Virus record (IMG/VR): IMGVR_UViG_3300042882_001046
Span: 54,269-118,268 of that record
Origin: a virus
Direction: 5' to 3' (one strand)
Length of the DNA: 64,000 nt
Shown in pieces: positions 1,590 through 24,337 of this stretch. Position 1 is the first letter of the stretch. Each line of letters starts with the position of its first letter. The notes beneath the pieces are model-generated. The model was not told the DNA's origin, made no database searches, and saw only the letters and a program-made list of their open reading frames with translations. A program made the translations under genes and the position numbers.

Positions 1590-3605
1590 ATGAACGACTT
1601 AATGGACGATGACGACAAAATGATGAGTAAGAAACAGAAATCGACTGGCGACAGTACGACTCCTGTGTTAGACAACTTCAGTCGAGATTTGAATAAACTT
1701 GCTGAGGAAGGTAAATTGGACCCTGTCATTGGACGTGACAGAGAGATTTTGAGAATAGCTCAAATTTTATCTCGTAGAAAAAAGAACAACCCAATCATCG
1801 TTGGTGAACCTGGTTGTGGTAAGACCGCAATTGTGGAAGGTTTGGCGATGAAGATTGTTAGTGGTGAATGTCCACGTAATCTTTTGGATAAACGTTTAGT
1901 CAATCTTGACTTAACTTCTGTTGTTGCTGGTACAAAATACCGTGGACAATTTGAAGAGAGAATGAAGGTAATTATCGAAGAACTTCAAGCAAATCCTAAC
2001 ATCATTGTATTCATTGATGAAATCCATACTCTTGTAGGTTCTGGTAATTCTGCAGGTTCTATGGATGGTTCAAACATTTTTAAACCCGCACTTGCTCGTG
2101 GTGAAGTCCAAGTAATTGGTGCCACCACATTGGATGAGTTCCGTAAGAATATTGAAAAAGACGGAGCGTTAGAACGTAGGTTTCAAAAAGTTGTGGTTGA
2201 ACCTTCAACTGTTGTTGAGACAATTCAAATCTTGAAAAACGTTCGCGACAAATATGAGTCTTATCATAAAGTCACGTATTCTGACGAGGTTATTGAAACT
2301 TGTGTTAAGTTGGCAGACCGTTATATCACGGACCGTGAGTTCCCTGATAAAGCATTTGACATCTTAGATGAAGTTGGAGCTCGTATGCAAACAGAACTTA
2401 AAGTTCCTGAAGTTGTTGAAGAGTTAAAACGTAAAGCGGCTGAAATCAAACAACAAAAAATTGATGTTGTTAAGAAACAAAACTACGAACAAGCTGCTCA
2501 GTTAAGAGACAAAGAGAAAAAGGTATTGGATAAATTGGAGGATGAAAAACGTAAGTTTGAAGAACAGATGTCAAAAGACAAACAAAAAGTTACATTAGAG
2601 GATGTGTACGATGTTGTTTCAAACATGACCAAAATTCCTGTAAACAAAATGTCTGTTGATGATACCAAAGCTTTGTTGAACTTGGATAAACACATTGTTG
2701 GTACCGTAATCGGTCAGGACGCCGCTGTTATTAAAGTGGCTAAATCTATCAAAAGAAATAGATTGGGTATTAAAGACCCGAACCGTCCGATTGGTTCATT
2801 TGTGTTCCTTGGTTCAACAGGTGTTGGTAAAACTCACTTGGCAAAACAATTGGCTAAGGAAATGTTTGGTAGCGAAGATTCATTAATTCGTGTGGATATG
2901 TCCGAGTACCAAGAGAAACACACCGTATCTAAATTGGTTGGAGCCCCTCCAGGTTATGTTGGATACGAAGAAGGTGGATTGTTAACTGAAAAAGTTAAAA
3001 ACAAACCATATTCAGTGATTTTATTTGATGAGGTTGAAAAAGCTCACAAAGATGTATTCACAGTATTACTACAAATCTTGGACGATGGTCACGTTACAGA
3101 TAGTTTAGGTAGAAAGATTAACTTCAAAAATACCTTAATTATCTTAACCTCAAACCTTGGGGTTAAAAAATTACAGGACTTTGGAACGGGTATTGGATTC
3201 GGTACAAACTCTTACAGTAATGAAGAGGCAAAAAAAGACATTTTGATGAAAGAGATGAAGAACTTCTTCTCTCCTGAGTTTATCAACCGTATTGACGATA
3301 CTATTGTTTTTAACTCACTTTCTCAAGAAGATATCAAAAAGATTACGGATATCGAACTTAAAAAATTGATGAAACGTCTTGAAGATATGAAGTACAAGAT
3401 TAATTATGACGATAGTTTAGTTGAGTACATTGCAAAAATTGGATATGATGAAAGTTATGGGGCAAGACCTATGAAAAGAGCAATCCAAGACAAAGTGGAG
3501 GACTTACTATCCGAAGAAGTTCTAACCGACAAAATTGTGGAAGGTAAATCTTACGTGATTAAGGTTGAGGACGAAACGGTAAAGGTCGTTAAAAAAGGAC
3601 GATAA
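1590..3605 (+). CDS. clpC-like: ClpC-type AAA+ unfoldase lacking the N-domain
   Basis: 671 residues against about 810-850 for bacterial ClpC. The usual double Clp N-domain is missing and replaced by an acidic/Lys start. AAA-1 has Walker A GEPGCGKT (72-79) and Walker B IVFIDEIH. A UVR-like linker (NYEQAAQLRDKEKK) follows at about 290-310. AAA-2 has Walker A GSTGVGKT. After TSNLG the sequence DFGTGIGFG occupies the position of the VGF/IGF ClpP-docking loop, so partnership with a ClpP is expected. Both ATPase sites look intact. A ClpP gene lies at 31906 and a UVR protein is divergently encoded next door. Substrate choice probably depends on an adaptor. Confidence 0.93.
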   Translation: MNDLMDDDDKMMSKKQKSTGDSTTPVLDNFSRDLNKLAEEGKLDPVIGRDREILRIAQILSRRKKNNPIIVGEPGCGKTAIVEGLAMKIVSGECPRNLLDKRLVNLDLTSVVAGTKYRGQFEERMKVIIEELQANPNIIVFIDEIHTLVGSGNSAGSMDGSNIFKPALARGEVQVIGATTLDEFRKNIEKDGALERRFQKVVVEPSTVVETIQILKNVRDKYESYHKVTYSDEVIETCVKLADRYITDREFPDKAFDILDEVGARMQTELKVPEVVEELKRKAAEIKQQKIDVVKKQNYEQAAQLRDKEKKVLDKLEDEKRKFEEQMSKDKQKVTLEDVYDVVSNMTKIPVNKMSVDDTKALLNLDKHIVGTVIGQDAAVIKVAKSIKRNRLGIKDPNRPIGSFVFLGSTGVGKTHLAKQLAKEMFGSEDSLIRVDMSEYQEKHTVSKLVGAPPGYVGYEEGGLLTEKVKNKPYSVILFDEVEKAHKDVFTVLLQILDDGHVTDSLGRKINFKNTLIILTSNLGVKKLQDFGTGIGFGTNSYSNEEAKKDILMKEMKNFFSPEFINRIDDTIVFNSLSQEDIKKITDIELKKLMKRLEDMKYKINYDDSLVEYIAKIGYDESYGARPMKRAIQDKVEDLLSEEVLTDKIVEGKSYVIKVEDETVKVVKKGR

Positions 3606-6241: not shown

Positions 6242-6664
6242 GGGGATGAAATGGTATCGATTGGCATTGTTGGGGATAAGTGGCACGTAGTCAGAATTCA
6301 TCTATGACTTTAATCTATGGTGAAGACAATTAGCTGGCAATACTTTTGCTAAGATGGCGACTTTAGGTTTAACTAGAGAAGCTTCTGTTGTAGCTGCCTA
6401 AGAGGTAGTCACAACCGTTACTCCAACCAAGTTGGTGTAACCTCGGGTCGATTAGGACGTTAACCTAGGAACAGAAGTCCAATATACGGGTCACAGGTCA
6501 GAGCTCGTTTAAAATAATTCTGAGACCAGGTTGTTTGTAAGTTTGGTTCCCACATACATCAAACTTAATATTTCGGAACGTTGAGAAACAACGTTGTACT
6601 AAACGTGTAGTCATTTATTGTCAAAGTGAGCAAGACGCGGGTTCGACTCCCGCCATCTCCACCA
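6242..6664 (+). ncRNA. ssrA: tmRNA (trans-translation RNA)
   Basis: About 423 nt. The 5' GGGGATG pairs with the 3' CATCTCC to form the acceptor stem, including a G3-U70 pair, the alanine identity element. The T arm GCGGG-TTCGACT-CCCGC and an encoded CCA complete the tRNA-like end. The best tag frame starts at GCT 6333 (AGNTFAKMAT...) and ends ...REASVVAA at TAA 6399-6401, giving 22 residues with a hydrophobic Val-Val-Ala-Ala end typical of protease-targeting tags. The tag is longer than the usual 8-15 residues. The RNA rescues stalled ribosomes and tags products for Clp-type proteases, which the phage also encodes. The resume codon is inferred, not proven. Confidence 0.93.
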
Positions 6665-6675
6665 ATTTAAATTTT

Positions 6676-7068
6676 ATGGGAGTAGATTGTAATATATGTA
6701 GCAACAAGTGTTTCGGGGTACCAGGGTACCACGGAAGTTGTTGCACCATAGAGGACCGTGATTATATCATAGGTTCTCATCACGACACCCAAGAATTTAT
6801 TGACTCTCTATCTAATAAATTTGGTAGAGAAGTTTCCTATAATGAAGTGTTTGTTGATTACGAAGAGGGAAAAACTTTATTCCCAAACAAATCAACTTGG
6901 CAAAATCCAAATAGCTATCCCGCACTTCGAGTTGATTTTTACAACCCAAGATTCCCATGTATTTTTTATAACACAAAAATTAAGGCGTGTTCTGTATACG
7001 ACATACGTCCTAAAACCTGTAGAGAATACGAGTGTGATTATTTAAAGGAGCACACAACCAACATTTAA
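6676..7068 (+). CDS. YkgJ-like cysteine cluster protein
   Basis: 130 residues. CNICSNKC near the N-terminus, CC at about 22, and YDIRPKTCREYECDY near the C-terminus match the CxxCxxxC(x)nCC...RPxxCRxYxC pattern of the YkgJ-type zinc/iron-chelating family. The biochemical role of this family is not well defined. It starts 12 nt after the tmRNA 3' end, so it may be read through from the tmRNA promoter. No own promoter was seen. Confidence 0.75.
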   Translation: MGVDCNICSNKCFGVPGYHGSCCTIEDRDYIIGSHHDTQEFIDSLSNKFGREVSYNEVFVDYEEGKTLFPNKSTWQNPNSYPALRVDFYNPRFPCIFYNTKIKACSVYDIRPKTCREYECDYLKEHTTNI

Positions 7069-7143
7069 TAATTTCATAATACATTATTAATACACTTACA
7101 GACATACTTTCATAGTTATTGGGGAACTAATTTAAATAATTTT

Positions 7144-9621
7144 ATGAAGTATTTTCTTTTATTTTTATTGCTACTTCCAACATTAGCAATTGGACAAATA
7201 ACCGTAAACGGTTTAACAAAATCAAAATCCGAAAACATATATTTTTCACATATAAGTTTTAAACACTCAGACGGTGCCACATATTCAACAATTTCAAATG
7301 AAAACGCGGAATATAAATTAAACCTTAAATCTGGTTTATATACAATAAAAGCGTCATACATTGGATATAAAGAATTCACAAAAGAATTAAATGTAACGTC
7401 CGACTTAACCTTTGATATAATATTTGAAGAAACTGAAACTCAGTTGTCAGAAGTTGTTGTAAGGGCGGCTCCACAAAAAGTAACCGAAGCATCAATTGTT
7501 AGGTCAATACGAAATAATAATGTCGTATCCGATGGACTATCAATTGAATTTATTAAGAAAACTCCTGACAGAAACGTTGGTGACGCACTTAAAAGAGTTG
7601 GTGGGGTAACCATCCAAAACGATAAATTTGTATTGGTAAGAGGTTTGGCAGACCGTTATAATTCTGCATTATTAAATAAAACCCCACTACCGTCAACTGA
7701 ACCAGATAAAAGAGCGTTTTCTTTTGACATAATCCCAACTTCTTTAATTGACAACATTATTGTTGCTAAATCATCGTCAGCAAATTTGCCTGGTGATTGG
7801 AGTGGGGGATTAGTTCAAATAACAACAAAAGAAGTTTCTGATAAATTTTTTAATCTGTCATTGGGAAGTGGTTGGGGTTCGGTTTCAACCTTTAGAGATT
7901 TTAAGTTAGTTCAAGCTACCGATTTCCCTTCCACATTCCCTTCAACTTATAGATACCGTATATCATCAAACGGAGATAAAAGGGCGTATACTAAATTAAT
8001 TGGTAATCCATCAGTTGAACAGACTAAATCAACCCCTAATTTAAATGGAGGATTATCATTTGGTCACGCAAATGGAAAATGGAATTCATTATTTAGTTCT
8101 ACAATTAGAAATTCATATACACTAAACAATATTGAAAGAAAAGATTATCAATCATCAACAGAGTTAGCTTATGACTATAAAGATGTTTTATTTACAAAAA
8201 GATTTTCAACAAACAGTTTGTTTAATTTAACTTACTTGGGTGAAAATAGATACAGTTGGAAAACTTTAGTAAACTACCAAATTGAAGATTCATATCTAAA
8301 CCGTAATGGCGATAATTTTGATAACGTTCAGAATGTTTTAACAACGTCTTCGAATCATGTTAACAACGTTGTAATTAGTTCTCAATTTGACGGTAAAATT
8401 AAAACATTAAATTTTAATTTAGGATACAATTATACGTTTAGAGAACAACCAGATTATAGGATTAATCCAATCACAAAATCATTAGGTGTTAACGAACCTT
8501 ACGCAACTGCGTGGAGAGACACATATCGTTTTTGGAGTGTAATGGATGAAAACTCATTTAACGGTAACATAAATAAAGAACTCAATAATATTAAAATTGG
8601 TGGTGGGTACATTAAAAGGTTTAGAGGTTTTAACGCTAGAATATTTCGTTATCTATCAACAGACATGATGGATGAAATAACAAACAACACCGACAGATAT
8701 ACTGCCGATTTTGATTTGGGGTCTCTTTACTCGATGTATGAAAACGAATTTGGTAAATGGAAAATAAATGGTGGAATAAGAGGTGAATATAATTTATTTA
8801 ATGTTCAAACCGCAGATTTTAGTGGTACGGAAGTGAATGTTAACAGAAAATATTTAGACCTTTTACCTTCGTTAAATCTCTCATACAACGAAGAAAAAAC
8901 AAAGTATAGATTCTCAGTAAGTAAAACATTGGCAAGACCTGAATTCAGAGAAGTTGCTAATTTTGCTTATTATGATTTTGTAAGAAATGCTCAAATATTG
9001 GGAAATTCAAAGTTAGAAAAATCTGACATATATAATTTAGACCTTAAATACGAATGGTACCCAAAGACAGGTGAAAACATTTCGGTTTCTTTATTTGGTA
9101 AAAATTTCATTAAACCAATTGAACAAATTGTTGCAGACGGCTCAGTTCCTTCAAATCTTCTTTTAACTTACACAAACCCTAATTCAGCAATCTTATACGG
9201 TATTGAATTTGAAGTTCGTAAAAAGATAAGTGATTGGTTTGATGTTTATACAAATGCTTCGGTAATGAATTCAGAAGTAGAAGTTAATGGTATCAAAAGA
9301 CAATTACAGGGTCAATCAAACTATGTTTTAAACGGAGGAGTAAACATACATAAAAAGAAAAACACCCTTAATTTAACTTATAATAGAGTTGGTGATAGAA
9401 TATCATCTGTAGGGTTTCAGGGGTATCCTGATATATTCGAAAATAGTAGAGATGTATTAGACATTACATTCTTACATAAACTTTCAAAAGGAGAAATAAA
9501 ATTGGCAATAGGTGATGTATTTGCTCAACCATCAATTTATTACCAAAAGGTACAAAACCGAAATCTAATAAAAATAAACAATGAGCAAACAATTTCATTA
9601 ACATTAAATCTAACATTATGA
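7144..9621 (+). CDS. TonB-dependent outer-membrane receptor
   Basis: 825 residues. It has a Sec signal peptide (MKYFLLFLLLLPTLAIGQ), a carboxypeptidase-regulatory-like beta-sandwich at about 20-95 (GLYTIKASYIGYKE), a plug domain at about 115-220 (VLVRGLADRYN, then LPSTEPDKRAFSFDIIPTSL, then GGLVQITTKE), and a long beta-barrel with alternating aromatic strands to the C-terminus. This is the standard architecture of Bacteroidota nutrient receptors energised by host TonB-ExbBD. It overlaps the lipoprotein gene by ATGA. Such a pair is normally chromosomal; here it is most likely acquired cargo that alters uptake or surface recognition of infected cells. The ligand is unknown. Confidence 0.9.
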   Translation: MKYFLLFLLLLPTLAIGQITVNGLTKSKSENIYFSHISFKHSDGATYSTISNENAEYKLNLKSGLYTIKASYIGYKEFTKELNVTSDLTFDIIFEETETQLSEVVVRAAPQKVTEASIVRSIRNNNVVSDGLSIEFIKKTPDRNVGDALKRVGGVTIQNDKFVLVRGLADRYNSALLNKTPLPSTEPDKRAFSFDIIPTSLIDNIIVAKSSSANLPGDWSGGLVQITTKEVSDKFFNLSLGSGWGSVSTFRDFKLVQATDFPSTFPSTYRYRISSNGDKRAYTKLIGNPSVEQTKSTPNLNGGLSFGHANGKWNSLFSSTIRNSYTLNNIERKDYQSSTELAYDYKDVLFTKRFSTNSLFNLTYLGENRYSWKTLVNYQIEDSYLNRNGDNFDNVQNVLTTSSNHVNNVVISSQFDGKIKTLNFNLGYNYTFREQPDYRINPITKSLGVNEPYATAWRDTYRFWSVMDENSFNGNINKELNNIKIGGGYIKRFRGFNARIFRYLSTDMMDEITNNTDRYTADFDLGSLYSMYENEFGKWKINGGIRGEYNLFNVQTADFSGTEVNVNRKYLDLLPSLNLSYNEEKTKYRFSVSKTLARPEFREVANFAYYDFVRNAQILGNSKLEKSDIYNLDLKYEWYPKTGENISVSLFGKNFIKPIEQIVADGSVPSNLLLTYTNPNSAILYGIEFEVRKKISDWFDVYTNASVMNSEVEVNGIKRQLQGQSNYVLNGGVNIHKKKNTLNLTYNRVGDRISSVGFQGYPDIFENSRDVLDITFLHKLSKGEIKLAIGDVFAQPSIYYQKVQNRNLIKINNEQTISLTLNLTL

Positions 9622-10823
9622 AAAAATTATTAATTGCTATTTTAGCATTAGGATTATTGAGTTGCGAAAAAGATTTAGGTGGTGGAGAAGATGGACCAAT
9701 TAACATTCCAACTTCAACAACACTTTCAGGTAACATCAATACAACAACAACTTTAACTGCAGATAAAGTTTGGACACTAAAAGGTTATGTATACGTAACC
9801 GACGGAGCAAAACTTATTATTCAACCAGGTACGACAATCGTTTCTGACATTGCAGAAAAAGGAGCATTATGTATTGAAAGAGGTGCTCAAATTATTGCAG
9901 AAGGAACCGTAACAAAACCAATTATTTTTACATCTGGTAGAGCGGTTGGAGAAAAATCACCTGGTGATTGGGGTGGTATTGTAATATTGGGTAGAGCAAA
10001 AACCAATAGAACATCAGAACCAACAATCGAAGGTGGTATTGGCAGACCGTTTGGTGGAACAAACGATTTAGATAATAGCGGTATTCTTCGTTATGTAAGA
10101 ATTGAATACGCTGGTATCGCGGCAATGCCGAATTCTGAAATAAATGCATTGACATTAGGTGGTGTTGGTAGTGGAACAATAATTGAATATGTTCAAACAA
10201 TTTACGCTAACGATGATGCATTTGAATTCTTTGGAGGAACTGTATCACCAAGAAACTTATACGCGTTTGCGACCGCAGATGATGATTACGATTTTGACTT
10301 TGGATATAACGGAACCGTAACAAACAGTGTTTCAAAAAGAGACCCTCAATTTGTAGACAACGGAGATGCAGGAAATGGTGTAGAATGTGATAACGATGGA
10401 ACAGGTTCATCATCACAACCTTTTACACATCCTAAATTAAGTGGTATGATTTTAATTGGACCGTTTGATGTGTCATCACTATCAAACCATAATTTAGGGT
10501 TAAGATGGAGACGTGCAACACAGTTTACAATAACAAACTCAAAGATATTAGGTTATCAAAAAGGTTCGTTTTCTATTGAAAGTAATGAAACCGCACAATC
10601 ATATAGAGATGGGGTATCTAAATTTCAAAATAATGAGGTTCAATCGTTTGACCCATTATTAAATTTTAAATCAACCTCAACAGTGTTTACCGCATTACAA
10701 ATGAAAGAAAAATCGTTAAGTGAAGGTAACCTTGAGAAAAATTATACGAGAGCAGAATTAGAAATACTTTCTAAACCAACATGGACTAATGGTTGGACAA
10801 GATTTCCATCAAGAGGAAATTAA
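9618..10823 (+). CDS. Secreted beta-helix lipoprotein paired with the TonB receptor
   Basis: 401 residues. A lipoprotein signal peptide ends in LGLLSC, with Cys about 16 as the lipidation site followed by EKD and a Gly-rich spacer, a pattern used for surface export of Bacteroidota lipoproteins. The rest is repetitive (LKGYVYVTDGAKLIIQPGTT; GTIIEYVQTIYANDDAFEFFGG), which suggests a right-handed parallel beta-helix. The start codon overlaps the receptor stop, so the two are translated together, and the protein may be the surface partner of the receptor. Enzymatic activity cannot be assigned. Confidence 0.82.
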   Translation: MKKLLIAILALGLLSCEKDLGGGEDGPINIPTSTTLSGNINTTTTLTADKVWTLKGYVYVTDGAKLIIQPGTTIVSDIAEKGALCIERGAQIIAEGTVTKPIIFTSGRAVGEKSPGDWGGIVILGRAKTNRTSEPTIEGGIGRPFGGTNDLDNSGILRYVRIEYAGIAAMPNSEINALTLGGVGSGTIIEYVQTIYANDDAFEFFGGTVSPRNLYAFATADDDYDFDFGYNGTVTNSVSKRDPQFVDNGDAGNGVECDNDGTGSSSQPFTHPKLSGMILIGPFDVSSLSNHNLGLRWRRATQFTITNSKILGYQKGSFSIESNETAQSYRDGVSKFQNNEVQSFDPLLNFKSTSTVFTALQMKEKSLSEGNLEKNYTRAELEILSKPTWTNGWTRFPSRGN

Positions 10824-10845
10824 TATTCTTTTAATTAAAATTTTA

Positions 10846-10874
10846 AGCCCTCACCTATGGTGGGGGTTTTTTAT
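10846..10874 (+). terminator. Terminator after receptor/lipoprotein operon
   Basis: CCCTCACC-TAT-GGTGGGGG followed by TTTTTTATTTT. Confidence 0.75.
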
Positions 10875-10900
10875 TTTAAATAATTTACTATTATTACGTT

Positions 10901-17915: not shown

Positions 17916-18031
17916 GTTTTTTTGTTTTTTGTTTGTTATGTATTTTATTAACTTATGAACCATAAATATATGAAGAATTATCTTATGTGTCAATTATTTT
18001 AAAAGTTTTTTTTTGTTAAAATTTTGTTATG

Positions 18032-18117
18032 CGGAGAGTGTTGGGCTCGAACCAACGCGGCTGTTACACCCTACCTGTTTAGCAAACAGGCCCCTTCACC
18101 AACTTGGGTAACCCTCC
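18032..18117 (-). tRNA. tRNA-Ser(GCT)
   Basis: Acceptor GGAGGGT/ACTCTCC, long variable arm, anticodon loop TTGCTAA, T arm with GGTTCGAG, discriminator G followed by CA. Its 5' end abuts the stop codon of the 112-aa gene. Confidence 0.93.
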
Positions 18118-18456
18118 TTATTGTAATAATTGTATTAAATAATAAGATAATTTATATCCTGTAAACGCACCAAGAGCTGATGGTAATGGGAAAACAATCA
18201 TTTTACCTAAATCTGTAACGTATTTTGGTCTGTTAACAATCTTACCCATATAAAAGTAATATGTTAAGTACCCTAATAACACCGCTAAATCCGTTCTTGT
18301 TGCAATGAATACAACAATAGTCGCACCAATAAAACCAAAAGTAAAATTATCTCTAACTCCTTCCCAAATTTCAAATGTGGTAGCCTCTTTGTACTCTTTA
18401 ACAATTTTTTTAAACTTTGTTCTGTTTGTCTGTTTTTTTTTAATTTGTGATTCCAT
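18118..18456 (-). CDS. Membrane protein filling the gap between two tRNAs, 112 aa
   Basis: A basic N-terminus (about 1-25) precedes hydrophobic helices at about 37-55, 57-72 and 88-110. No family recognised. The start codon lies 1 nt after the tRNA-Ile discriminator base and the stop codon directly touches tRNA-Ser. If the array is one transcript, RNase Z cleavage would leave a mRNA beginning C-AUG. This is a clear case of tRNA punctuation. Confidence 0.65.
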   Translation of the reverse strand: MESQIKKKQTNRTKFKKIVKEYKEATTFEIWEGVRDNFTFGFIGATIVVFIATRTDLAVLLGYLTYYFYMGKIVNRPKYVTDLGKMIVFPLPSALGAFTGYKLSYYLIQLLQ

Positions 18457-18457
18457 G

Positions 18458-18531
18458 TTGGAATAGATGGATTCGAACCATCGACATCTACCGTATCAGG
18501 ATAGCGCTCTAACCAACTGAGCTATATTCCA
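18458..18531 (-). tRNA. tRNA-Ile(GAT)
   Basis: Acceptor TGGAATA/TATTCCA, anticodon stem CTATC/GGTAG with loop CTGATAC, T arm GATGG-TTCGAAT-CCATC, discriminator A. Confidence 0.93.
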
Positions 18532-18536
18532 ATGTG

Positions 18537-18706
18537 CTGTAAGGGAAGGAGTCGAACCTTCAAGAGGAGATTCAATTGATAACACAACGCTTGCAAGCTG
18601 GTGGTCTACCCCATATTATCAATCTATTTCTTTGTCCCCGCCCCCGAGACAGGAGGGTGCGTATGCCAAGGTCATAACTGAGACAACCTAATTTCGCCAC
18701 CTTACA
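18537..18706 (-). ncRNA. Aberrant 170-nt tRNA-like gene
   Basis: Acceptor TGTAAGG/CCTTACA, a normal T arm AAGG-TTCGACT-CCTT, discriminator G and trailing CA are all present. After the acceptor come TG, GCG...CGC (D-stem-like with a 30-nt loop) and a perfect 5-bp/7-nt arm CCCTC-CTGTCTC-GGGGG that would present GTC. About 85 nt then replace the variable region, including the stem ATTGATAA/TTATCAAT, and TTGTCTC/GGGACAA offers an alternative pairing. It is either an expanded tRNA, an interrupted tRNA or a tRNA-like regulatory RNA. Confidence 0.5.
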
Positions 18707-18711
18707 ATTTG

Positions 18712-18798
18712 CGGAGGAACAGGGATTCGAACCCCAGATACCCTTTCGAGTATGCCAGTTTTCAAGACTGGTGCAATCAACCGCTCTGCCATTCCTCC
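18712..18798 (-). tRNA. tRNA-Ser(TGA)
   Basis: Acceptor GGAGGAA/TTCCTCC, anticodon arm CCAGT-CTTGAAA-ACTGG, long variable arm, discriminator G. Confidence 0.94.
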
Positions 18799-18802
18799 AA
18801 AT

Positions 18803-18902
18803 AAAAGTGTTTTGGTCAACCACTCGCTACCCACCGCAGTATGACGATTCCCCCTGTGGTCATCGTACTTACGCCTAAGCCTTGTCCGTTGTAAACACTT
18901 TT
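18803..18902 (-). ncRNA. Structured spacer RNA between tRNA-Ser and tRNA-His
   Basis: A perfect 10-bp outer stem (AAAAGTGTTT/AAACACTTTT) is extended inward by CAAC/GTTG. An inner hairpin GTACGATGAC...GTCATAC has a 2-nt bulge. It is not a tRNA (no TTCGA) and has no convincing ORF. Its length of 100 nt and exact placement between tRNAs suggest an array-encoded small RNA. Confidence 0.4.
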
Positions 18903-18903
18903 G

Positions 18904-18977
18904 GGTGACTAACGGGAATCGAACCCGTGACAACTTGAACCACAATCAAGCGCTCTACCTACTGAGCTATAGACACC
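18904..18977 (-). tRNA. tRNA-His(GTG)
   Basis: Anticodon arm CTTGA-TTGTGGT-TCAAG, T arm ACGGG-TTCGATT-CCCGT. An encoded G at -1 faces C73, the tRNA-His hallmark. The acceptor has one T-T mismatch. Confidence 0.92.
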
Positions 18978-18982
18978 ATATG

Positions 18983-19052
18983 TTGCGTGTATGAGGTTCG
19001 AACTCACTTGACCTTCCTTATGAGAGAAAGTTCTTTCCCACTAAGCCACGCA
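18983..19052 (-). tRNA. tRNA with CAT anticodon (Met or Ile2)
   Basis: Anticodon loop CTCATAA, T arm GTGAG-TTCGAAC-CTCAT, acceptor TGCGTGG/ACACGCA with one mismatch. No initiator hallmarks. Only 70 nt because of a short D arm. A second CAT tRNA lies at 26499. Confidence 0.85.
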
Positions 19053-19058
19053 GTTTAG

Positions 19059-19130
19059 TGGTTTTATTAGGACTCGAACCCAAACTCCGAAATCCGTAGT
19101 TTCGTGTGCTATCCATTACACCATAAAACC
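19059..19130 (-). tRNA. tRNA-Arg(ACG)
   Basis: Acceptor GGTTTTA/TAAAACC, anticodon arm CGAAA-CTACGGA-TTTCG, T arm TTGGG-TTCGAGT-CCTAA, discriminator A. A34 would need host TadA to become inosine. Confidence 0.9.
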
Positions 19131-19134
19131 GTTG

Positions 19135-19205
19135 TTGTCCCTCAGGGATTCGAACCCCAACTGGATGGACCAAAACCACCTGTACTACCGTTATACTAAA
19201 GGACA
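19135..19205 (-). tRNA. tRNA-Gln(TTG)
   Basis: Acceptor TGTCCTT/AGGGACA, anticodon arm GGTGG-TTTTGGT-CCATC, T loop TTCGAAT, discriminator A. Confidence 0.92.
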
Positions 19206-19213
19206 CTTTAGTG

Positions 19214-19293
19214 TGGGAGTGGAGGGATTCGAACCCCCAATGTCGACGACCACAGATTTACAGTCTGCTAAGCAACCGTTGCTCAACACTCCC
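19214..19293 (-). tRNA. tRNA-Tyr(GTA)
   Basis: Acceptor GGGAGTG/CACTCCC, anticodon loop CTGTAAA on stem CAGA/TCTG, long variable arm, T loop TTCGAAT, discriminator A. Confidence 0.93.
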
Positions 19294-19298
19294 AAGTT

Positions 19299-19524
19299 AG
19301 GAAAGGAGAAGATGGTCGAGTGGACATCTCCTTTTACGATTGGCATTACTCAGGTGTATTTCTCCCAACTCCGATGATACCGACCAAAATACACTCTCAT
19401 GTCATAGGTACCACCATTCCCCAATCAACCTATAAAACGATAATAGAATGTCCCAGCCGTCTCCTTCTCTTATCTAACATACACTAACAGCTAAATACGG
19501 CTTGACTGATTATACTGTATGTTT
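19299..19524 (-). ncRNA. Large structured RNA candidate with pseudoknot
   Basis: A 233-nt spacer between tRNA-Tyr and tRNA-Trp. On the minus strand, in order: AACATACA/TGTATGTT (8 bp); AGCCGT in that loop pairs with ACGGCT downstream, forming an H-type pseudoknot; ATAGGT/ACCTAT; GTGTATTT/AAATACAC (8 bp); AAAGGAGATG/CATCTTCTCCTTT. No convincing ORF over 16 codons. Not RNase P, 6S or tmRNA by visible motifs. Confidence 0.45.
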
Positions 19525-19526
19525 TG

Positions 19527-19600
19527 CACGGGTGGAGAGGTTCGAACTCCCGACAACTGGTTTTGGAGACCAGTACTCTACCAAACTGAGCTACACCCGC
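19527..19600 (-). tRNA. tRNA-Trp(CCA)
   Basis: Acceptor GCGGGTG/CACCCGT, anticodon arm CTGGT-CTCCAAA-ACCAG, T loop TTCGAAC, discriminator G. Confidence 0.94.
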
Positions 19601-19605
19601 TTATA

Positions 19606-19848
19606 TTACCTATACTTCCTGATAATCTTCATTATCTCTCCGATATCTGTAAGTTCCATCTTTTGTCCGACACGGATTGGATAGAATGCCACGGTAAATC
19701 CGTGGTTTCCACAAAAACGTTCGGTTACTCTTTTTCCATTAACTTTTTCAAGATAAATCCATGGAATGTTACCTGCGAATTCACATTTGATTCCCAGTTT
19801 GTCCATTCTTCTTCTGAAATCGTTTAATACTCTTGTGTCTGTTTCCAT
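19606..19848 (-). CDS. Hypothetical protein, 80 aa
   Basis: Soluble and basic (DFRRRMDKLGIKCEFAGNIPWIYLEKVNGKRVTERF). The FAGNIPWIYLEKVNGKRV stretch looks like a small mixed alpha/beta fold; no family named. It lies in the array 14 nt downstream of the tRNA-Cys 3' end, so its leader would be made by tRNA processing. Confidence 0.6.
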   Translation of the reverse strand: METDTRVLNDFRRRMDKLGIKCEFAGNIPWIYLEKVNGKRVTERFCGNHGFTVAFYPIRVGQKMELTDIGEIMKIIRKYR

Positions 19849-19862
19849 AAGTTTATTTTTTG

Positions 19863-19934
19863 AGGTCGAACCCAGAATCGAACTGGGGTAATTAGTTTTG
19901 CAGACTAACGCCTAAGCCGCTCGGCCACCCGACC
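19863..19934 (-). tRNA. tRNA-Cys(GCA)
   Basis: Acceptor GGTCGGG/TTCGACC, anticodon loop CTGCAAA on TTAGT/ACTAA, T loop TTCGATT, discriminator T as expected for Cys. Confidence 0.93.
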
Positions 19935-19940
19935 ATTGTT

Positions 19941-20174
19941 TTATTTAACCATATCAAAGTTAATCATATTCTCTGACATTAATTCACGAAGTTCATTTCT
20001 TATTTCCTGATATGCGTCATACTTGTCCTGTGGTAAATCATCGGAAGCATATTTAGTTTTCGCTCTCAATGATTGGTCCAAATCCCAAAGTATTGACCAC
20101 ATCTTCATTCCTTTAGTTGCCAAGTCGAAATCTTGTTGGTCCTCAGGTAAATTAAATTCTAAAACAGCTTTCAT
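19941..20174 (-). CDS. Hypothetical protein, 77 aa
   Basis: Start at ATG 20174 (KAVLEFNLPEDQQDFDLATKG); an upstream in-frame ATG at 20270 would add residues lying inside the preceding gene. Helical, Trp-containing (MWSILWDLDQSLRAKTKY). This type recurs in phage genomes without known function. It overlaps the upstream gene by 23 nt. Confidence 0.65.
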   Translation of the reverse strand: MKAVLEFNLPEDQQDFDLATKGMKMWSILWDLDQSLRAKTKYASDDLPQDKYDAYQEIRNELRELMSENMINFDMVK

Positions 20175-20352
20175 TTTTTTTCTCTTTATATTTTTTACAT
20201 CTCTTTTTTGGTACTTCAACGTAATATGAACCCATAAACGATGAGAATACACCAACGTAGTTGGACCCAACCTCTTTTACATCATGGAGCACTGAACCCT
20301 CAAAAAGGTTGAAGAAGATGTCAGTACAGTCTTTTTTTGTTACAACTTTCAT
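20152..20352 (-). CDS. Hypothetical protein, 66 aa
   Basis: Start at ATG 20352 (MKVVTKKDC), chosen because TATATTTG lies exactly 4 nt upstream; the longer frame from 20367 would run through this promoter. A C-terminal PKKRCKKYKEKK tail may bind nucleic acid. Function unknown. Confidence 0.55.
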   Translation of the reverse strand: MKVVTKKDCTDIFFNLFEGSVLHDVKEVGSNYVGVFSSFMGSYYVEVPKKRCKKYKEKKNESCFRI

Positions 20353-20356
20353 ATTA

Positions 20357-20364
20357 CAAATATA
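20357..20364 (-). promoter_or_regulatory. TATATTTG box 4 nt before start (leaderless)
   Basis: Minus strand TATATTTG-TAAT-ATG. It defines the start of the 66-aa gene. Confidence 0.65.
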
Positions 20365-20390
20365 CACAATTTTATTTAATTTTTCTAATG

Positions 20391-20464
20391 TGACCCCGCC
20401 GAGATTCGAACTCGGGACTCCTTCATTAAAAGTGAAGTGCTCTAGCCAACTGAGCTACGAAGTC
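20391..20464 (-). tRNA. tRNA-Lys(TTT)
   Basis: Acceptor GACTTCG/CGGGGTC, anticodon arm CTTCA-CTTTTAA-TGAAG, T arm CCGAG-TTCGAAT-CTCGG, discriminator A. Confidence 0.94.
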
Positions 20465-20470
20465 TTATTG

Positions 20471-20543
20471 TGGTAACGGTCAGAATCGAACTGACGACAC
20501 CTTGGTCTTCAGCCAAGTGCTCTACCAACTGAGCTACATCACC
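20471..20543 (-). tRNA. tRNA-Phe(GAA)
   Basis: Acceptor GGTGATG/CGTTACC, anticodon arm CTTGG-CTGAAGA-CCAAG, T loop TTCGATT, discriminator A. Confidence 0.94.
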
Positions 20544-20548
20544 ATTTG

Positions 20549-20621
20549 TAGTCCCTGTAGGAATCGAACCTACGACATCTTGCATGTAAAACAAGCGCTC
20601 TCCCAACTGAGCTAAAGGACT
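20549..20621 (-). tRNA. tRNA-Val(TAC)
   Basis: Acceptor AGTCCTT/AGGGACT, anticodon arm CTTGT-TTTACAT-GCAAG, T arm GTAGG-TTCGATT-CCTAC, discriminator A. Confidence 0.94.
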
Positions 20622-20626
20622 GTTTG

Positions 20627-20700
20627 TACTCCGTACGGGGCTCGAACCCGTAATCTTCACCGTGAAAGGGTGACGACTTAACCAATTTGTCCAACGGAGC
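20627..20700 (-). tRNA. tRNA-Glu(TTC)
   Basis: Acceptor GCTCCGT/ACGGAGT, anticodon arm TCACC-CTTTCAC-GGTGA, T arm ACGGG-TTCGAGC-CCCGT, discriminator A. Confidence 0.93.
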
Positions 20701-20756
20701 AATTATTCAACAAAAATACGACCAATAAATCAAAGAACCAAAAAACATCAAAATAA

Positions 20757-20790
20757 AAAACCCCGAACCTTTTTACGAGTTCGGGGTATA
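20757..20790 (-). terminator. Minus-strand terminator after the 32-aa gene
   Basis: CCCCGAAC/GTTCGGGG; read on the minus strand it is followed by TTTTTTATTTT. Confidence 0.7.
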
Positions 20791-20820
20791 TAAAAAATTT
20801 AGTTTATTAATCTAAAAAAA

Positions 20821-20919
20821 TTATCCTATTTTGACATCCGAACTACATAATAGCATACGCTCATACCAACAAATCGATTGTTGTGTACTAAAGACCATAT
20901 GTTTAAATGTAGTTTTCAT
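20821..20919 (-). CDS. Small protein, 32 aa
   Basis: MKTTFKHMVFST... ends SSDVKIG, with two Cys. It is bracketed by its own signals: TATCTTTG (20938-20945) 18 nt before the ATG, and a hairpin with T-run about 30 nt after the stop. That arrangement supports a real transcription unit, though the product may be unimportant if it is an RNA gene. No homology claimed. Confidence 0.45.
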   Translation of the reverse strand: MKTTFKHMVFSTQQSICWYERMLLCSSDVKIG

Positions 20920-20937
20920 TGTTTCTTATATATAGTA

Positions 20938-20945
20938 CAAAGATA
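20938..20945 (-). promoter_or_regulatory. TATCTTTG promoter box
   Basis: Perfect -7 box on the minus strand, 18 nt before the 32-aa ORF (leadered class). Confidence 0.55.
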
Positions 20946-20981
20946 CAAAAAAATCTTTGGGTGTCAAATATTTTTTTTAAC

Positions 20982-20989
20982 TATTTATA
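20982..20989 (+). promoter_or_regulatory. TATTTATA box, 4 nt before start
   Basis: CTATTTATA-AAAG-ATG upstream of the 139-aa gene. Confidence 0.45.
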
Positions 20990-20993
20990 AAAG

Positions 20994-21413
20994 ATGAAAA
21001 CATTGAGACAAATCATTAAGGAAGAATTATTACTTGAAAAAAGAATCACTCAAGTTAATTCGTCTTTAGAAGTAGTATTCCTATTTGACGTAAACAGGAC
21101 CACTCACGCCTTTGATAGAGACACAAGAGATGATATTGAAGGGTATAATGTAAGACCGATTGTTAACGCTGAAATTAGAGAGATTATCAGTACAGTAAAA
21201 AAAGATATTGCCGAAAAAATAGTTTCAAGGGAAATTAACCCTGAAGTAGATTTTGTTGTAAAGTCCTTAAAATGGGAATTAGCCATGGCAATAACTCCTG
21301 TTCATATTGGAGGAACTTATTGGCAATTAATTATCAAAACAGTATTCAGAGAATCCAAATACAACCCTTTTAGAGTGGGTGAAAACCAATTGGTGATTTA
21401 CTCAGACATTTAA
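20994..21413 (+). CDS. Putative virion protein with N-terminal targeting helix, 139 aa
   Basis: The N-terminus MKTLRQIIKEELLLEKR is an amphipathic helix with L-x-E, like several proteins here and like N-termini common in environmental tailed phages. The rest is a soluble alpha/beta protein (EVVFLFDVNRT; HIGGTYWQLIIKTVF), unrecognised. A TATTTATA box lies 4 nt before the ATG. Processing by a prohead protease is hypothesised. Confidence 0.55.
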   Translation: MKTLRQIIKEELLLEKRITQVNSSLEVVFLFDVNRTTHAFDRDTRDDIEGYNVRPIVNAEIREIISTVKKDIAEKIVSREINPEVDFVVKSLKWELAMAITPVHIGGTYWQLIIKTVFRESKYNPFRVGENQLVIYSDI

Positions 21414-21418
21414 AAAAA

Positions 21419-21505
21419 AAAAGGGTAACACTAGTATCTGAATCGTTCCCGTGTTACCCAGTTTGTAATTGAGCTTGTGTATCTAAATCGTGCTCCTCAA
21501 TCACA
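21419..21505 (-). ncRNA. Small RNA candidate with promoter and terminator
   Basis: TATCTTTG at 21509-21516 is followed after 4 nt by GTG. About 45-85 nt later comes the 9-bp hairpin GGGTAACAC/GTGTTACCC and a run of T (minus strand). A 16-codon GTG ORF (21454-21504) ends inside the hairpin. The unit is either a short RNA of about 85 nt or a leaderless micro-ORF. Confidence 0.45.
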
Positions 21506-21508
21506 ATA

Positions 21509-21516
21509 CAAAGATA
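21509..21516 (-). promoter_or_regulatory. TATCTTTG promoter of the small RNA
   Basis: Perfect TAnnTTTG on the minus strand; +1 is predicted near 21504. Confidence 0.55.
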
Positions 21517-21543
21517 CAAAAATATTTCGTACCACAAAAAATA

Positions 21544-22254
21544 TTATCCCTGAATATTAAAATTAATCACACATCTGTGAGTTTTTCCGTAAAAAGGTTT
21601 AACCGAATGAACAATATCGTAAGGCCAAATTATTAACATCCCTTTCTTTGGTCTAATAAAGTAAGACATTCCCCTAACGTGAAATGTAAATACCCCACTA
21701 TATGGATGGTCATCAACTGGGTCTCCGTCAGATAGATAATAACCACCAGAAAAGTTTAAAGTTGTTTCTTCATTTGGTTGCCATCTACAATGATTATGAG
21801 CGTTATGTCCACGACCTTCAGTTGGATTATAATATTGCATCCAACTCTCAGTAATCATTGGTTTTCTGTTGTGTTCAAATCCAAGTTTGTCCAGCATCTC
21901 CATATAACCCAATTCTACCCTTTTTTTAATTTTCTTAACACATTCCTCATCTATATTAAGAAAATCGTTTGGCGGGGTCCAAAATCGACTACCAATGGGG
22001 TTATGTTCCGTTGGTTCCACCCACATGTCTTGCCTATTGTAGTTTACTTGATATGTAGATTGTCTTTGTTCGTCGTATTGTTCTGGTAACTCTTGACCCA
22101 TCAATTTTTGTTGGTCGGTTAGAGCATTAAAACCAAAATTATAAACTTCGTCTTGAAGTTCGTCATCTGTGAATACTTTCATAAACACAGGAATAGGTGC
22201 AAGATGAAAAAGATTCTCCTGACTTGTTTTAACTAATGGATTTTTTACGTACAT
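21544..22254 (-). CDS. 2OG-Fe(II) oxygenase, phage type
   Basis: 236 residues. The C-terminal half has HNHCRWQPN, SGGYYLSDGD, FHVRGMSYFIRPKKGMLIIWP and IVHSVKPF followed by RCVINFNI, matching the 2OG-FeII_Oxy_5 group frequent in large environmental phages. The target is unknown. It lies 13 nt after the tRNA-Leu(TAG) 3' end in the same direction, so a tRNA-processing-derived leader is likely. Confidence 0.8.
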   Translation of the reverse strand: MYVKNPLVKTSQENLFHLAPIPVFMKVFTDDELQDEVYNFGFNALTDQQKLMGQELPEQYDEQRQSTYQVNYNRQDMWVEPTEHNPIGSRFWTPPNDFLNIDEECVKKIKKRVELGYMEMLDKLGFEHNRKPMITESWMQYYNPTEGRGHNAHNHCRWQPNEETTLNFSGGYYLSDGDPVDDHPYSGVFTFHVRGMSYFIRPKKGMLIIWPYDIVHSVKPFYGKTHRCVINFNIQG

Positions 22255-22267
22255 AATTTAAATCTTG

Positions 22268-22348
22268 TACCCCAAGAGAGACTCGAACTCTCACGACCGA
22301 AGTCATTGGTTCCTAAGACCAACGCGGCTACCGTTACGCCATCGGGGT
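22268..22348 (-). tRNA. tRNA-Leu(TAG)
   Basis: Acceptor ACCCCGA/TTGGGGT, anticodon loop CTTAGGA on TTGGT/ACCAA, long variable arm, T loop TTCGAGT, discriminator A. Confidence 0.93.
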
Positions 22349-22351
22349 GTG

Positions 22352-22443
22352 TCATTATCGCTTCAGCCACATCGGGAAAGGCGCCTCTCCCGCGTTGTTT
22401 AAGTGTGTAACTTGCGCCGTATCTCACTGAGGTACGATAATGA
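22352..22443 (-). ncRNA. Cloverleaf-like structured spacer RNA
   Basis: A perfect 9-bp outer stem (TCATTATCG/CGATAATGA) encloses three possible hairpins: GTACCTC-AGT-GAGATAC (one mismatch), AAGT/ACTT, and the GC-rich CGGGAGAGGCGCCTTTCCCG. There is no TTCGA T loop and no long ORF. It sits between tRNA-Leu and tRNA-Arg like the element at 18803. Confidence 0.42.
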
Positions 22444-22446
22444 TTG

Positions 22447-22520
<74 letters not shown>

Positions 22521-22524
22521 ATTG

Positions 22525-22610
22525 TACCGAGGGAGGGACTCGAACCCTCACGGCCGTTTACTGACCAAGGGATTTTAAGTCCCTCGTGGCTACCATTACA
22601 CCACCTCGGC
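22525..22610 (-). tRNA. tRNA-Leu(TAA)
   Basis: Acceptor GCCGAGG/CCTCGGT, anticodon arm AGGGA-CTTAAAA-TCCCT, long variable arm, T loop TTCGAGT, discriminator A. Confidence 0.94.
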
Positions 22611-22646
22611 ATTGTCTTACAAATATAACCTTTATGGAATCATAAA

Positions 22647-22684
22647 TCAAAAAAAACCCCAAACTTTTTTTTTAGTTTGGGGTC
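22647..22684 (-). terminator. Minus-strand terminator
   Basis: CCCCAAAC/GTTTGGGG; on the minus strand it is followed by TTTTTTTT. It ends the 22710-23441 transcript. Confidence 0.75.
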
Positions 22685-22709
22685 CTATTATATAAAGTTA
22701 TTACCTTTT

Positions 22710-23441
22710 TTATTGAGCATCAAACTCTTCTTCCCATAACGTATCAGAAGAATTTTCTTCTGTATTATAAGTGTGATTTAATTCAATTGTCATGTCATTG
22801 AAATTAAATACGAACTCTCCGTCTGACCCTTCATTAATTTCCCAACCACCATAATGACTTTCAAGTTGATTATAACACCAATCTTCAATTGTTGACGGAA
22901 CTGAATCACCATTTTCTTCAAATGAACTTTCAATATAACCAGAATCCCCCGAACCATTATATCTTAGAGTTAATATTCCATCTTGTGGAATTTCTAAATC
23001 AGATAGAACCCCATCTTTTTCCCATTCTTCAAAAATTTCTTGACCTTCTTCTTCTGACCATTCAGTCCCACTAGCGTCTCCTCTATCATACCAAGACCAA
23101 TAATGGTTAAATGAAATGTCTTTGTTTGCAGAATTAATACTAATCTCAAACTTTTGCCATGACATCGCATCAATATCTGGTGTCTCACTACTATATAATT
23201 CTTGGTCAGACGCATACTTCGTAATTTTTTGAAGTATCGGTATCAACCCTGACGGAACGTCCGCTCTCCAGTTATTGGAGAAATGTGTCATTTGATTCCA
23301 ATCTATATTATTATAGTTAAGTGTATCACCATAATCATCCATCTCGAATTCAAACTCACCGACTTCCATTCCGAGAGAGCTCAAATAATTACAAACTCTT
23401 CTCAGGTATTGTTTTTCTTCTGTTGTTAAAAGTTTTTCCAT
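22710..23441 (-). CDS. Acidic hypothetical protein, 243 aa
   Basis: Strongly acidic, rich in E, D, W and S (EWSEEEGQEIFEEWEKDG; TEENSSDTLWEEEFDAQ). The middle RYNGSGDSGYIESSFEENG followed by DWCYNQLESHYGGWEINEG resembles a pattern seen in other phage and plasmid hypotheticals. No catalytic motif. A TATTTATT box (23445-23452) lies 3 nt before the ATG, and a strong terminator follows. Confidence 0.6.
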   Translation of the reverse strand: MEKLLTTEEKQYLRRVCNYLSSLGMEVGEFEFEMDDYGDTLNYNNIDWNQMTHFSNNWRADVPSGLIPILQKITKYASDQELYSSETPDIDAMSWQKFEISINSANKDISFNHYWSWYDRGDASGTEWSEEEGQEIFEEWEKDGVLSDLEIPQDGILTLRYNGSGDSGYIESSFEENGDSVPSTIEDWCYNQLESHYGGWEINEGSDGEFVFNFNDMTIELNHTYNTEENSSDTLWEEEFDAQ

Positions 23442-23444
23442 ATA

Positions 23445-23452
23445 AATAAATA
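23445..23452 (-). promoter_or_regulatory. TATTTATT box, 3 nt before start
   Basis: Minus strand GATATTTATT-TAT-ATG upstream of the 243-aa gene. Confidence 0.42.
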
Positions 23453-23806
23453 TCAGTCTTCAAACTCTAATTTCATTGTTTTTAACATCCATTGGGGTCT
23501 TTGATTTGACGAGATGTTACTAATCCACTCTTTGGCTGAAGGTATGTAATTATTACAATCTTCTTTTACGTGTTGTTCTCCAACATATCGGGTATAAACT
23601 GTTTTTCCGTCTGAGTTTAAGAACTCAGTTCCAAATCTTTTTTCCATTTCAAAAATTCCTTCACTATGATGTCTAAACATTCTATGAAGAGAATCTCCAA
23701 ACCAAGATTTGGTTTCATCTAACCATTCATGTAAATGAATGTAATCCTCAGGTTTTCCTCCAAACTTTTTGGCGGATGATTTTGCATGTAAATTTGGATG
23801 TGCCAT
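23453..23806 (-). CDS. DUF6915-like conserved protein
   Basis: 117 residues. MAHPNLHAKSSAKKFGG, then LHEWLDETKSWFGDSLHRMF, RHHSEGIFEMEKRFG, NSDGKTVYTRYVGEQHVKED and PSAKEW form a pattern with many conserved His known from bacterial and phage proteins of unknown function. The His content suggests metal binding. Followed by a membrane gene 3 nt upstream in array order. Confidence 0.62.
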   Translation of the reverse strand: MAHPNLHAKSSAKKFGGKPEDYIHLHEWLDETKSWFGDSLHRMFRHHSEGIFEMEKRFGTEFLNSDGKTVYTRYVGEQHVKEDCNNYIPSAKEWISNISSNQRPQWMLKTMKLEFED

Positions 23807-23808
23807 GA

Positions 23809-24042
23809 TTATTTAATTTGTGAGTTGTTTCTTCTTGCTTCCTCAGCTTCTTTGTAAACCCTAACCCATGTTAAAAATACATCAATAGGTGCTAAAATCC
23901 AACACATAATAATTAACGCCATACTCTCAAGACCTGGAGATATTCCAAGACCACCTGACATAACATCTCTGTTCCATTTTCTAATTGACATGATTACGCA
24001 GTAAATGAAACAAACAACGTAATACGACCAAAATAATTGCAT
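23809..24042 (-). CDS. Small membrane protein, 77 aa
   Basis: Start at ATG 24042 (MQLFWSYYVVCF), 15 nt after the tRNA-Ala 3' end; the longer frame would run into the tRNA. Two hydrophobic spans at about 2-20 and 42-60, then a charged EAEEARRNN tail. Function unknown. Confidence 0.55.
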   Translation of the reverse strand: MQLFWSYYVVCFIYCVIMSIRKWNRDVMSGGLGISPGLESMALIIMCWILAPIDVFLTWVRVYKEAEEARRNNSQIK

Positions 24043-24057
24043 AAATAAAAGTTTTAG

Positions 24058-24130
24058 TGGAGAATGAGGGAATCGAACCCACGACAACTTGAATGCAAAT
24101 CAAGCGCTCTACCAACTGAGCTAATTCCCC
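24058..24130 (-). tRNA. tRNA-Ala(TGC)
   Basis: Acceptor GGGGAAT/ATTCTCC, anticodon arm CTTGA-TTTGCAT-TCAAG, T loop TTCGATT, discriminator A. Confidence 0.94.
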
Positions 24131-24136
24131 TGTTTG

Positions 24137-24209: not shown

Positions 24210-24259
24210 ATTTGTGGGTGTATGCTCATCACATACTCATGGGTTCCCACAACCCGTTG

Positions 24260-24332: not shown

Positions 24333-24337
24333 AATTT

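Follow-up and report, generated by a model that had tools for sequence, protein, structure and literature searches.

Gene Pair and Terminator

The window analyzed here (the whole stretch of 64,000 nucleotides) carries on its plus strand a TonB-dependent receptor gene (7144..9621) followed by a lipoprotein gene (9618..10823). The receptor ORF encodes 825 aa, and its three Pfam matches all lie over the cut-off, namely a CarboxypepD_reg-like N-terminal domain (CarbopepD_reg_2, PF13715; aa 44-106, 7273..7461), a Plug domain (PF07715, E 1.9e-8; aa 132-217, 7537..7794) and an outer-membrane beta-barrel (OMP_b-brl_3, PF14905, E 5.9e-26; aa 414-822 matched, 8383..9609). A signal peptide is visible in the sequence, together with a TonB-box-like stretch, LSEVVV (aa 101-106), at the end of the N-terminal domain. 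An earlier note on this DNA had described a full-length receptor with signal peptide, regulatory domain, plug and barrel, and each of these parts was recovered. The CarboxypepD_reg-like domain is missing from about one third of the sampled phage receptors (long and short forms counted on the tree). The AF2 model of the receptor (pLDDT 86.1) matched TonB-dependent transporters (TBDTs) in a fold search of the PDB, with E to 2e-24. The best folds are siderophore and heme receptors, and XusA-XusB (9gbc) and a B12 transporter with a surface lipoprotein (8bmx) are also among them, at an identity of 13% or less and in a manner generic to all TBDTs. Plug and outer-membrane beta-barrel with the TBDT fold, the features of a TonB-dependent transporter, are both present, and this conserved plug and transport architecture suggests TonB-dependent transport. 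In a sequence search of the PDB, neither protein had a substantial relative.

The second ORF encodes a lipoprotein of 401 aa with the lipobox LLSC (aa 13-16), which was assigned to no Pfam family. Its AF2 model (pLDDT 93.5) has a beta-rich, helix-type fold, and the PDB matches found by Foldseek are weak (best E 0.013); the majority are beta-helix proteins, among them pectate lyases, polygalacturonases and tailspikes. Membership in SusCD/PusCD was rejected, the partner having a beta-helix model instead of a SusD-type domain (Pfam). The two ORFs are coupled by a 4-nt ATGA overlap, in agreement with the overlap of receptor and beta-helix lipoprotein genes claimed before. An intrinsic-terminator-like hairpin with a T-rich tail lies downstream (10845..10879, plus strand; 11 pairs, 6 of them G-C, loop of 3); the hairpin is placed at 10845-10869, with a T tract. 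This hairpin-like element 3' of the lipoprotein gene fits the claim that the pair has its own terminator, an argument that rests on position and strength because shuffled sequence yields about as many hairpins in the scan.

Upstream Repeat and Leader

The putative Pho box of the receptor gene consists of three TTAAYA-like hexamers with an 11-bp period (TTAATA-ATTTC-ATAATA-CATTA-TTAATA; 7065..7092, plus strand). It lies 79 bp upstream of the receptor and is the only three-copy site with at least 17 of 18 matches, at periods from 8 to 15, in the whole 118-kb record. At a threshold of at least 11 of 12 matches, the TTAAYA repeat was found upstream of 31 of 58 phage receptors, against 10 of 815 other phage genes; the p-value of this comparison is optimistic because the repeat was first noticed in, and then scored on, the same phage upstreams. 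The bacterial test is the fairer one, as its data played no part in defining the repeat, and there, at the same threshold, the repeat precedes 50 of 71 receptors and 58 of 525 other genes, most strongly at period 11. When the phages were thinned to less than 80% receptor identity, the repeat remained in 9 of 22 at period 11 and in 0-3 of 22 at other periods. Perfect sites also occur upstream of genes for PitA, two Porin_O_P proteins and a polyphosphate kinase (PPK). About half of the phage pairs fall below the 11/12 threshold, and the subgroups L011, L013, L014 and L017 have no repeat. Among the controls, upstreams of PBP_like_2 (PstS-containing) genes of Chitinophagaceae, taken as positive control, gave no clear repeat (3/29), and those of alkaline phosphatase genes gave a weak signal (4/23).

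The repeat at 7065-7092 is likely a binding site for the phosphate-starvation regulator of the host. This regulator would be supplied by the host and not by the phage, the PhoB-type DNA-binding domain Trans_reg_C being present in 0 of 42 phage records, which may be fragments. Predicted phage Pho boxes are regarded as unreliable without binding tests (PMC10976474). A different view would be that the repeat is the site of another OmpR-family regulator or AT-rich noise, and that the pair is a phosphorus importer without Pho control; we consider this unlikely, though it deserves serious weight. The genome has an A+T content of 67%, the PstS-family controls were negative and the alkaline phosphatases weak, and OmpR-family regulators have this type of repeat in common. 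Against it stand the strict period specificity in bacteria, the presence of the repeat upstream of bacterial receptor genes and also of those for PitA, Porin_O_P and PPK, and the regulator gene beside many homologs, which matches PhoB best.

Between the repeat and the start codon, a conserved leader or core-promoter-like element, TAGTTATTGGGGAACTAA (7113..7130, plus strand), lies 31 bp upstream of the start codon. In a motif search on 58 phage upstreams, roughly 50 had it near -30 to -40, and it is unique in the window at three or fewer mismatches, with about 0.3 chance matches expected. A structured leader RNA found no support (z -0.63). The generic phage promoter was also considered and rejected, since its TATTTAT motif (23 of 101 upstreams of this phage, 2.1 expected) is absent before the receptor.

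Bacterial Homologs and the Substrate

In bacteria, 80 homologous loci were surveyed, with PitA in 23, PhoU_div in 22 and a pair of histidine kinase and PhoB-type response regulator in 21; at least one of the three is present in 32 of the 80. The neighbors were identified as PHO4/PitA, PhoU_div, Alk_phosphatase, phosphodiesterase and the phosphate porin Porin_O_P. The response regulator has PhoB as its best NCBIfam match, under the curated cut-off, and the PhoR calls are likewise under the cut-off, while the match to a phosphonate-degradation HD oxygenase is over it. The closest bacterial pair, that of Aquirufa (62% / 70% identity), adjoins genes for phosphodiesterase, PitA, phosphonate functions and alkaline phosphatase. 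For many bacterial homologs, several from Pedobacter among them, neither Pit nor PhoBR lies within 10 kb. The bacterial genes are mostly separate, with a median spacing of about 65 nt in contrast to the 4-nt overlap in phages, and most bacterial lipoproteins are 440-490 aa long compared with about 400 aa in phages. In the phages, the other phosphorus gene is phoH (17 of 42 records), a common phage gene without diagnostic value, and PstS was found in none of 28 phage records.

Because close bacterial homologs sit in phosphate loci, phosphorus can be inferred as the substrate class, and the cargo would be phosphate or organic phosphorus. It is improbable, in our judgment, that the two genes are an auxiliary metabolic pair importing some other nutrient, such as siderophore or iron, glycan or vitamin. 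Such cargo would suit the siderophore, heme and B12 systems among the best PDB folds, and glycan binding is frequent among beta-helix folds, but those matches are generic at their low identity. In Flavobacterium johnsoniae, moreover, the comparable Fjoh_0545/0546 pair is strongly induced by phosphate depletion, with emphasis in the same study on the repression of such loci when N or Fe is limiting (PMC8115612). Next to the homologs, phosphate genes stood out and no iron or glycan genes did.

The TonB-dependent receptors are well-known phage receptors, and the earlier note had offered three roles for the pair, of which replacing a receptor and blocking superinfection would both have the phage protein displace or mask the host entry protein of related phages. 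We hold this to be quite improbable. The known use of such receptors by phages and the retention of the pair across a large phage lineage speak for it; however, it predicts neither the lipoprotein coupled in nearly all pairs nor the upstream Pho-type repeats and the kinship to Pho-locus receptors, and the conserved plug and transport architecture suggests a working transporter. The two roles found no specific support, whereas the third, feeding the infected cell, is favored by the Pho-locus kinship and the repeat, and is narrowed by the bacterial neighbors and the repeat to phosphorus acquisition under host Pho control.

Phage Context and Phylogeny

The virus record of 118,268 bp also encodes a T4-type major capsid protein (G000:C1:38232-39770), a portal, a terminase and a major head protein, so that the receptor and lipoprotein genes share one record with T4-type capsid, portal and terminase. 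The pair was found again in about 100 viral stretches whose neighboring phage genes vary, and 78 of 80 distinct phage pairs keep the identical 4-nt overlap; therefore the pair is neither chance nor misassembly. The carrier is a large T4-like phage of Bacteroidota with at least 80 relatives that have the same pair, and the pair is widespread in this lineage. Carriage by a phage, as proposed before, is borne out, and neither chimeric assembly nor bacterial flanks were seen; the view that it is unusual for a phage to encode such a receptor does not hold. Neither protein is present in PHROGs, and the literature searched yielded no description of a phosphate TBDT encoded by a phage (subscription papers and preprints lay outside the search).

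In the trees, the phage genes group in a separate deep clade, next to or within which three Aquirufa genomes alone are placed. Aquirufa is nested within the phages in the receptor tree, where phage monophyly is not rejected by the AU test (p 0.249), and is sister to the phages in the lipoprotein tree. The phage-like copy is present in 3 of 38 Aquirufa genomes, and the one examined has it inside a phosphate locus. A firm claim of transfer from phage to Aquirufa was dropped in view of the AU result and the lipoprotein tree. Misassembly or contamination of the contig by bacterial DNA can practically be discarded: relatives of the lipoprotein are frequent in Bacteroidota (318 of 395 genomes), but the pair recurs on numerous independent viral contigs beside differing phage genes, the record holds capsid, portal and terminase, and the phage genes stand in a clade of their own.

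Proposed Function

The pair is probably a phage-borne phosphorus importer under control of the host PhoB, an outer-membrane analog of cyanophage pstS. The two genes would be a phosphorus-acquisition unit taken from the phosphate-starvation (Pho) regulon of Bacteroidota. When a phosphate-starved host is infected, its activated PhoB would bind the TTAAYA repeat at 7065-7092 and switch on the pair, while the remaining phage genes would use other promoters. The receptor would be inserted into the outer membrane. Its beta-helix partner, as a surface-anchored lipoprotein, would form a complex with it and capture the ligand, in the manner of BtuG on BtuB and XusB on XusA. Two acidic motifs of the pair, NDDAFEF and DDDFDFDFG, are conserved. 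Phosphate or a phosphorus-containing compound would then be taken up by TonB-driven transport, and the imported phosphorus could sustain synthesis of the large phage genome once host transcription declines. These features suggest that the virus maintains phosphorus uptake by its phosphate-starved host while infection proceeds, to the possible benefit of the phage.

On a broader reading, to which we give somewhat better than even chances, T4-like phages of Bacteroidota carry a mobile, self-contained phosphate-starvation module that works as a phosphorus importer during infection and whose genes are exchanged with bacteria. The parts of such a module would be a host-PhoB-responsive promoter, a TonB-dependent transporter, a surface lipoprotein and a terminator. 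If true, phages of a main heterotrophic phylum take over outer-membrane nutrient import via the starvation sensor of the host, and phage infection is tied to the phosphorus cycling that particle- and plant-associated bacteria carry out. The proposal also gives a testable function for this Bacteroidota receptor/lipoprotein family.

Comparison With Known Systems

The SusCD/PusCD systems share the logic of an outer-membrane TBDT with a lipoprotein, but the phage partner is without the SusD-type lipoprotein domain. The BtuB-BtuG and XusA-XusB systems of Bacteroides (8bmx, 9gbc) likewise combine a TBDT with a surface lipoprotein and match the phage receptor in fold; in contrast, their cargo is vitamin B12 or siderophore, the likeness in fold being that of the receptors. 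In Caulobacter crescentus, the lipoprotein ElpS is made on phosphate starvation and its gene adjoins the TonB receptor CC0171 (PMC2996285), and a low-phosphate-inducible Caulobacter lipoprotein has 31-36% identity to FI-FIII (PMC8115612). By description, a phosphate-starvation surface lipoprotein next to a TonB-dependent receptor resembles the phage pair; however, this system is alphaproteobacterial, release of ElpS depends on type II secretion, and CC0171 is reported as constitutive (PMC2996285).

The phoBR operon of F. johnsoniae (PUSIV) contains Fjoh_0545 (pf07715, pf13715, pf14905) and the adjacent lipoprotein FII, Fjoh_0546 (IPR011050) (PMC8115612). The phage receptor has the same three Pfam domains, both have an adjacent downstream lipoprotein of pectin-lyase-like fold (likened by fold class, the phage fold being predicted), and the Pho-regulon setting resembles the phosphate loci of the bacterial homologs. 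Fjoh_0545/0546 is chromosomal, whereas the present pair is phage-borne.

The known phage phosphate-uptake genes, such as cyanophage pstS, belong to periplasmic and mainly marine cyanobacterial systems. Control by the host PhoBR is described for pstS and other phage genes (PMC10976474). In both cases a gene of host phosphate acquisition, host-derived and under host Pho control (putative in the Bacteroidota phage), is carried on the genome of a T4-like phage, the phosphate kinship of the present pair being read from neighborhood. While cyanophage pstS encodes one periplasmic binding protein that serves inner-membrane uptake, the Bacteroidota phages would have a two-gene importer of the outer membrane.

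A Receptor and Lipoprotein Gene Pair on a Phage Genome

The TonB-dependent receptor (TBDT) gene (7144–9621, 825 aa) and the lipoprotein gene (9618–10823, 401 aa) overlap by 4 nt, ATGA, and a terminator-like hairpin is positioned 3' of the latter (10845–10869). The receptor contains CarbopepD_reg_2, Plug and OMP_b-brl_3, all above Pfam cut-offs, and its AlphaFold model (pLDDT 86.1) matches solved TBDTs with E-values to 2e-24. The observation of the earlier note that a phage carries this pair is confirmed. The lipoprotein matched no family in Pfam, NCBIfam or PHROGs; its structure was predicted with confidence to be of beta-helix type (pLDDT 93.5), and fold comparison gave weak matches, to pectate lyases, polygalacturonases and tailspikes.

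The virus record of 118,268 bases, of which the window covers bases 54269–118268, encodes the T4-type capsid Gp23 (38232–39770 of the record), portal, terminase, major head protein and PhoH. The window also contains a ClpB/ClpC-like ATPase of the AAA+ class that has two AAA modules (1590–3605), a tmRNA with the tag GNTFAKMATLGLTREASVVAA (6242–6664) lying 480 bp 5' of the receptor gene, a set of 23 tRNA genes that together serve all 20 amino acids (18031–26572), two tandem Nol-like carbamoyltransferases (27993–31254) and a 372 aa protein with two PAS sensory domains and no kinase domain match (54880–55995). The thymidylate synthase (44490–45722) is longer than usual at 410 aa and matched in two stretches, and it possibly contains an insert.

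Distribution and Exchange of the Pair

Scans of IMG/VR confirmed 109 stretches with lipoprotein relatives and 99 with receptor relatives, and the best 80 of each were kept. The receptor precedes the lipoprotein in all 80 distinct phage pairs, 78 of which have the exact 4-nt overlap, whereas the two genes of bacterial homologues are mostly apart (median about 65 nt). The flanking genes vary from phage to phage, and the pair is therefore either transferred or retained as one unit. A distant pair in reversed order (lipoprotein 38% and receptor 28% identity) was found in the 634-kb phage record LR745206.1 (L164, 10575–14415), perhaps an independent acquisition. The N-terminal CarboxypepD_reg domain is missing in about one third of the phage receptors sampled (L050, L011, L013, L126 and others), its presence switching at least five times on the receptor tree. 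A frameshift or an error of assembly splits the receptor into two overlapping ORFs in one phage contig (L053, 7850–10004).

The phages of this lineage form one group (support 98) in the lipoprotein tree, adjoining three sequences of the genus Aquirufa, and a long branch (support 100) separates both from Chitinophagaceae and Sphingobacteriaceae. In the receptor tree, Aquirufa is nested within the phages, grouping with six of them at support 100; phage monophyly was not rejected there (p-AU 0.249). The phage-like copy occurs in only 3 of 38 Aquirufa genomes. Gene exchange between the phage and Aquirufa lineages, in either direction, is likely.

A Putative Pho Box Upstream of the Receptor

Hexamers repeated at an 11-bp period are the site layout of the PhoB/OmpR family. 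TTAAYA hexamers with this period occur upstream of the phage receptors, where 31 of 58 have at least 11/12 matches vs. 10 of 815 other phage genes; the excess is greatest at period 11, and the result holds after the phages were thinned by receptor identity. Because the repeat was first seen in the phage upstreams themselves, the bacterial homologues served as the test set, giving 50 of 71 receptors vs. 58 of 525 other genes, with 15 perfect sites at period 11 and none at periods 9, 10, 12 and 13. Across the 1.4 Mb of bacterial loci, PitA, two Porin_O_P genes and a polyphosphate kinase gene likewise have perfect sites upstream, as do several genes without a known phosphate link. Controls were mixed (PBP_like_2 genes 3/29, alkaline phosphatases 4/23).

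In the present phage, the putative Pho box is a triple repeat (7065–7092) that begins 79 bp 5' of the receptor gene; no other triple site in the whole 118-kb record reaches 17/18 matches. A second conserved leader element, TAGTTATTGGGGAACTAA (7113–7130), has a position fitting a core promoter or untranslated leader. TATTTAT, the common upstream motif and perhaps a promoter element of the phage (before 23 of 101 gene starts in the whole record vs. 2.1 expected), is absent before the receptor. The T4 late motif TATAAATA reads TATTTATA on the opposite strand. A Trans_reg_C domain is absent from all of the 42 phage records scanned, and therefore a host regulator would be needed.

Probable Phosphate-Linked Function and Known Systems

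All genes within 10 kb of 80 bacterial homologues were clustered. Of the 80 loci, 23 contain PitA, 22 contain PhoU_div and 21 contain a histidine kinase with response regulator, at least one of these being present in 32; Porin_O_P also occurs in some. The best NCBIfam match of the response regulator is PhoB, but below the curated cut-off. In the Aquirufa locus, the pair is followed by a phosphodiesterase-type metalloenzyme and PitA, then by phosphonate-degradation genes and alkaline phosphatase.

Feeding of the infected cell had been suggested as one role, and the phosphate-locus homologues and upstream repeat support it, narrowed to Pho-linked phosphorus import, which is probably the function of the pair. 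Most likely, host PhoB would activate the two genes when the cell is starved of phosphate, and a receptor–lipoprotein complex would bring in phosphorus, as phosphate or in organic form, while the large phage genome is copied. We infer PhoB binding, induction, complex formation and substrate alike, and the acidic beta-helix lipoprotein may bind the cargo directly.

In the phoBR operon of F. johnsoniae, phosphate depletion strongly induces both the TBDT Fjoh_0545, which has the three Pfams of the phage receptor, and the lipoprotein Fjoh_0546 (PMC8115612). ElpS, a related lipoprotein from Caulobacter, adjoins the TBDT CC0171 and is made under phosphate starvation, and its overproduction raises secreted phosphatase activity (PMC2996285). 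Our mechanism is modeled on cyanophage pstS, whose expression requires host PhoBR (PMC10976474); the proposed host Pho control is alike, whereas the pair would act at the outer membrane instead.
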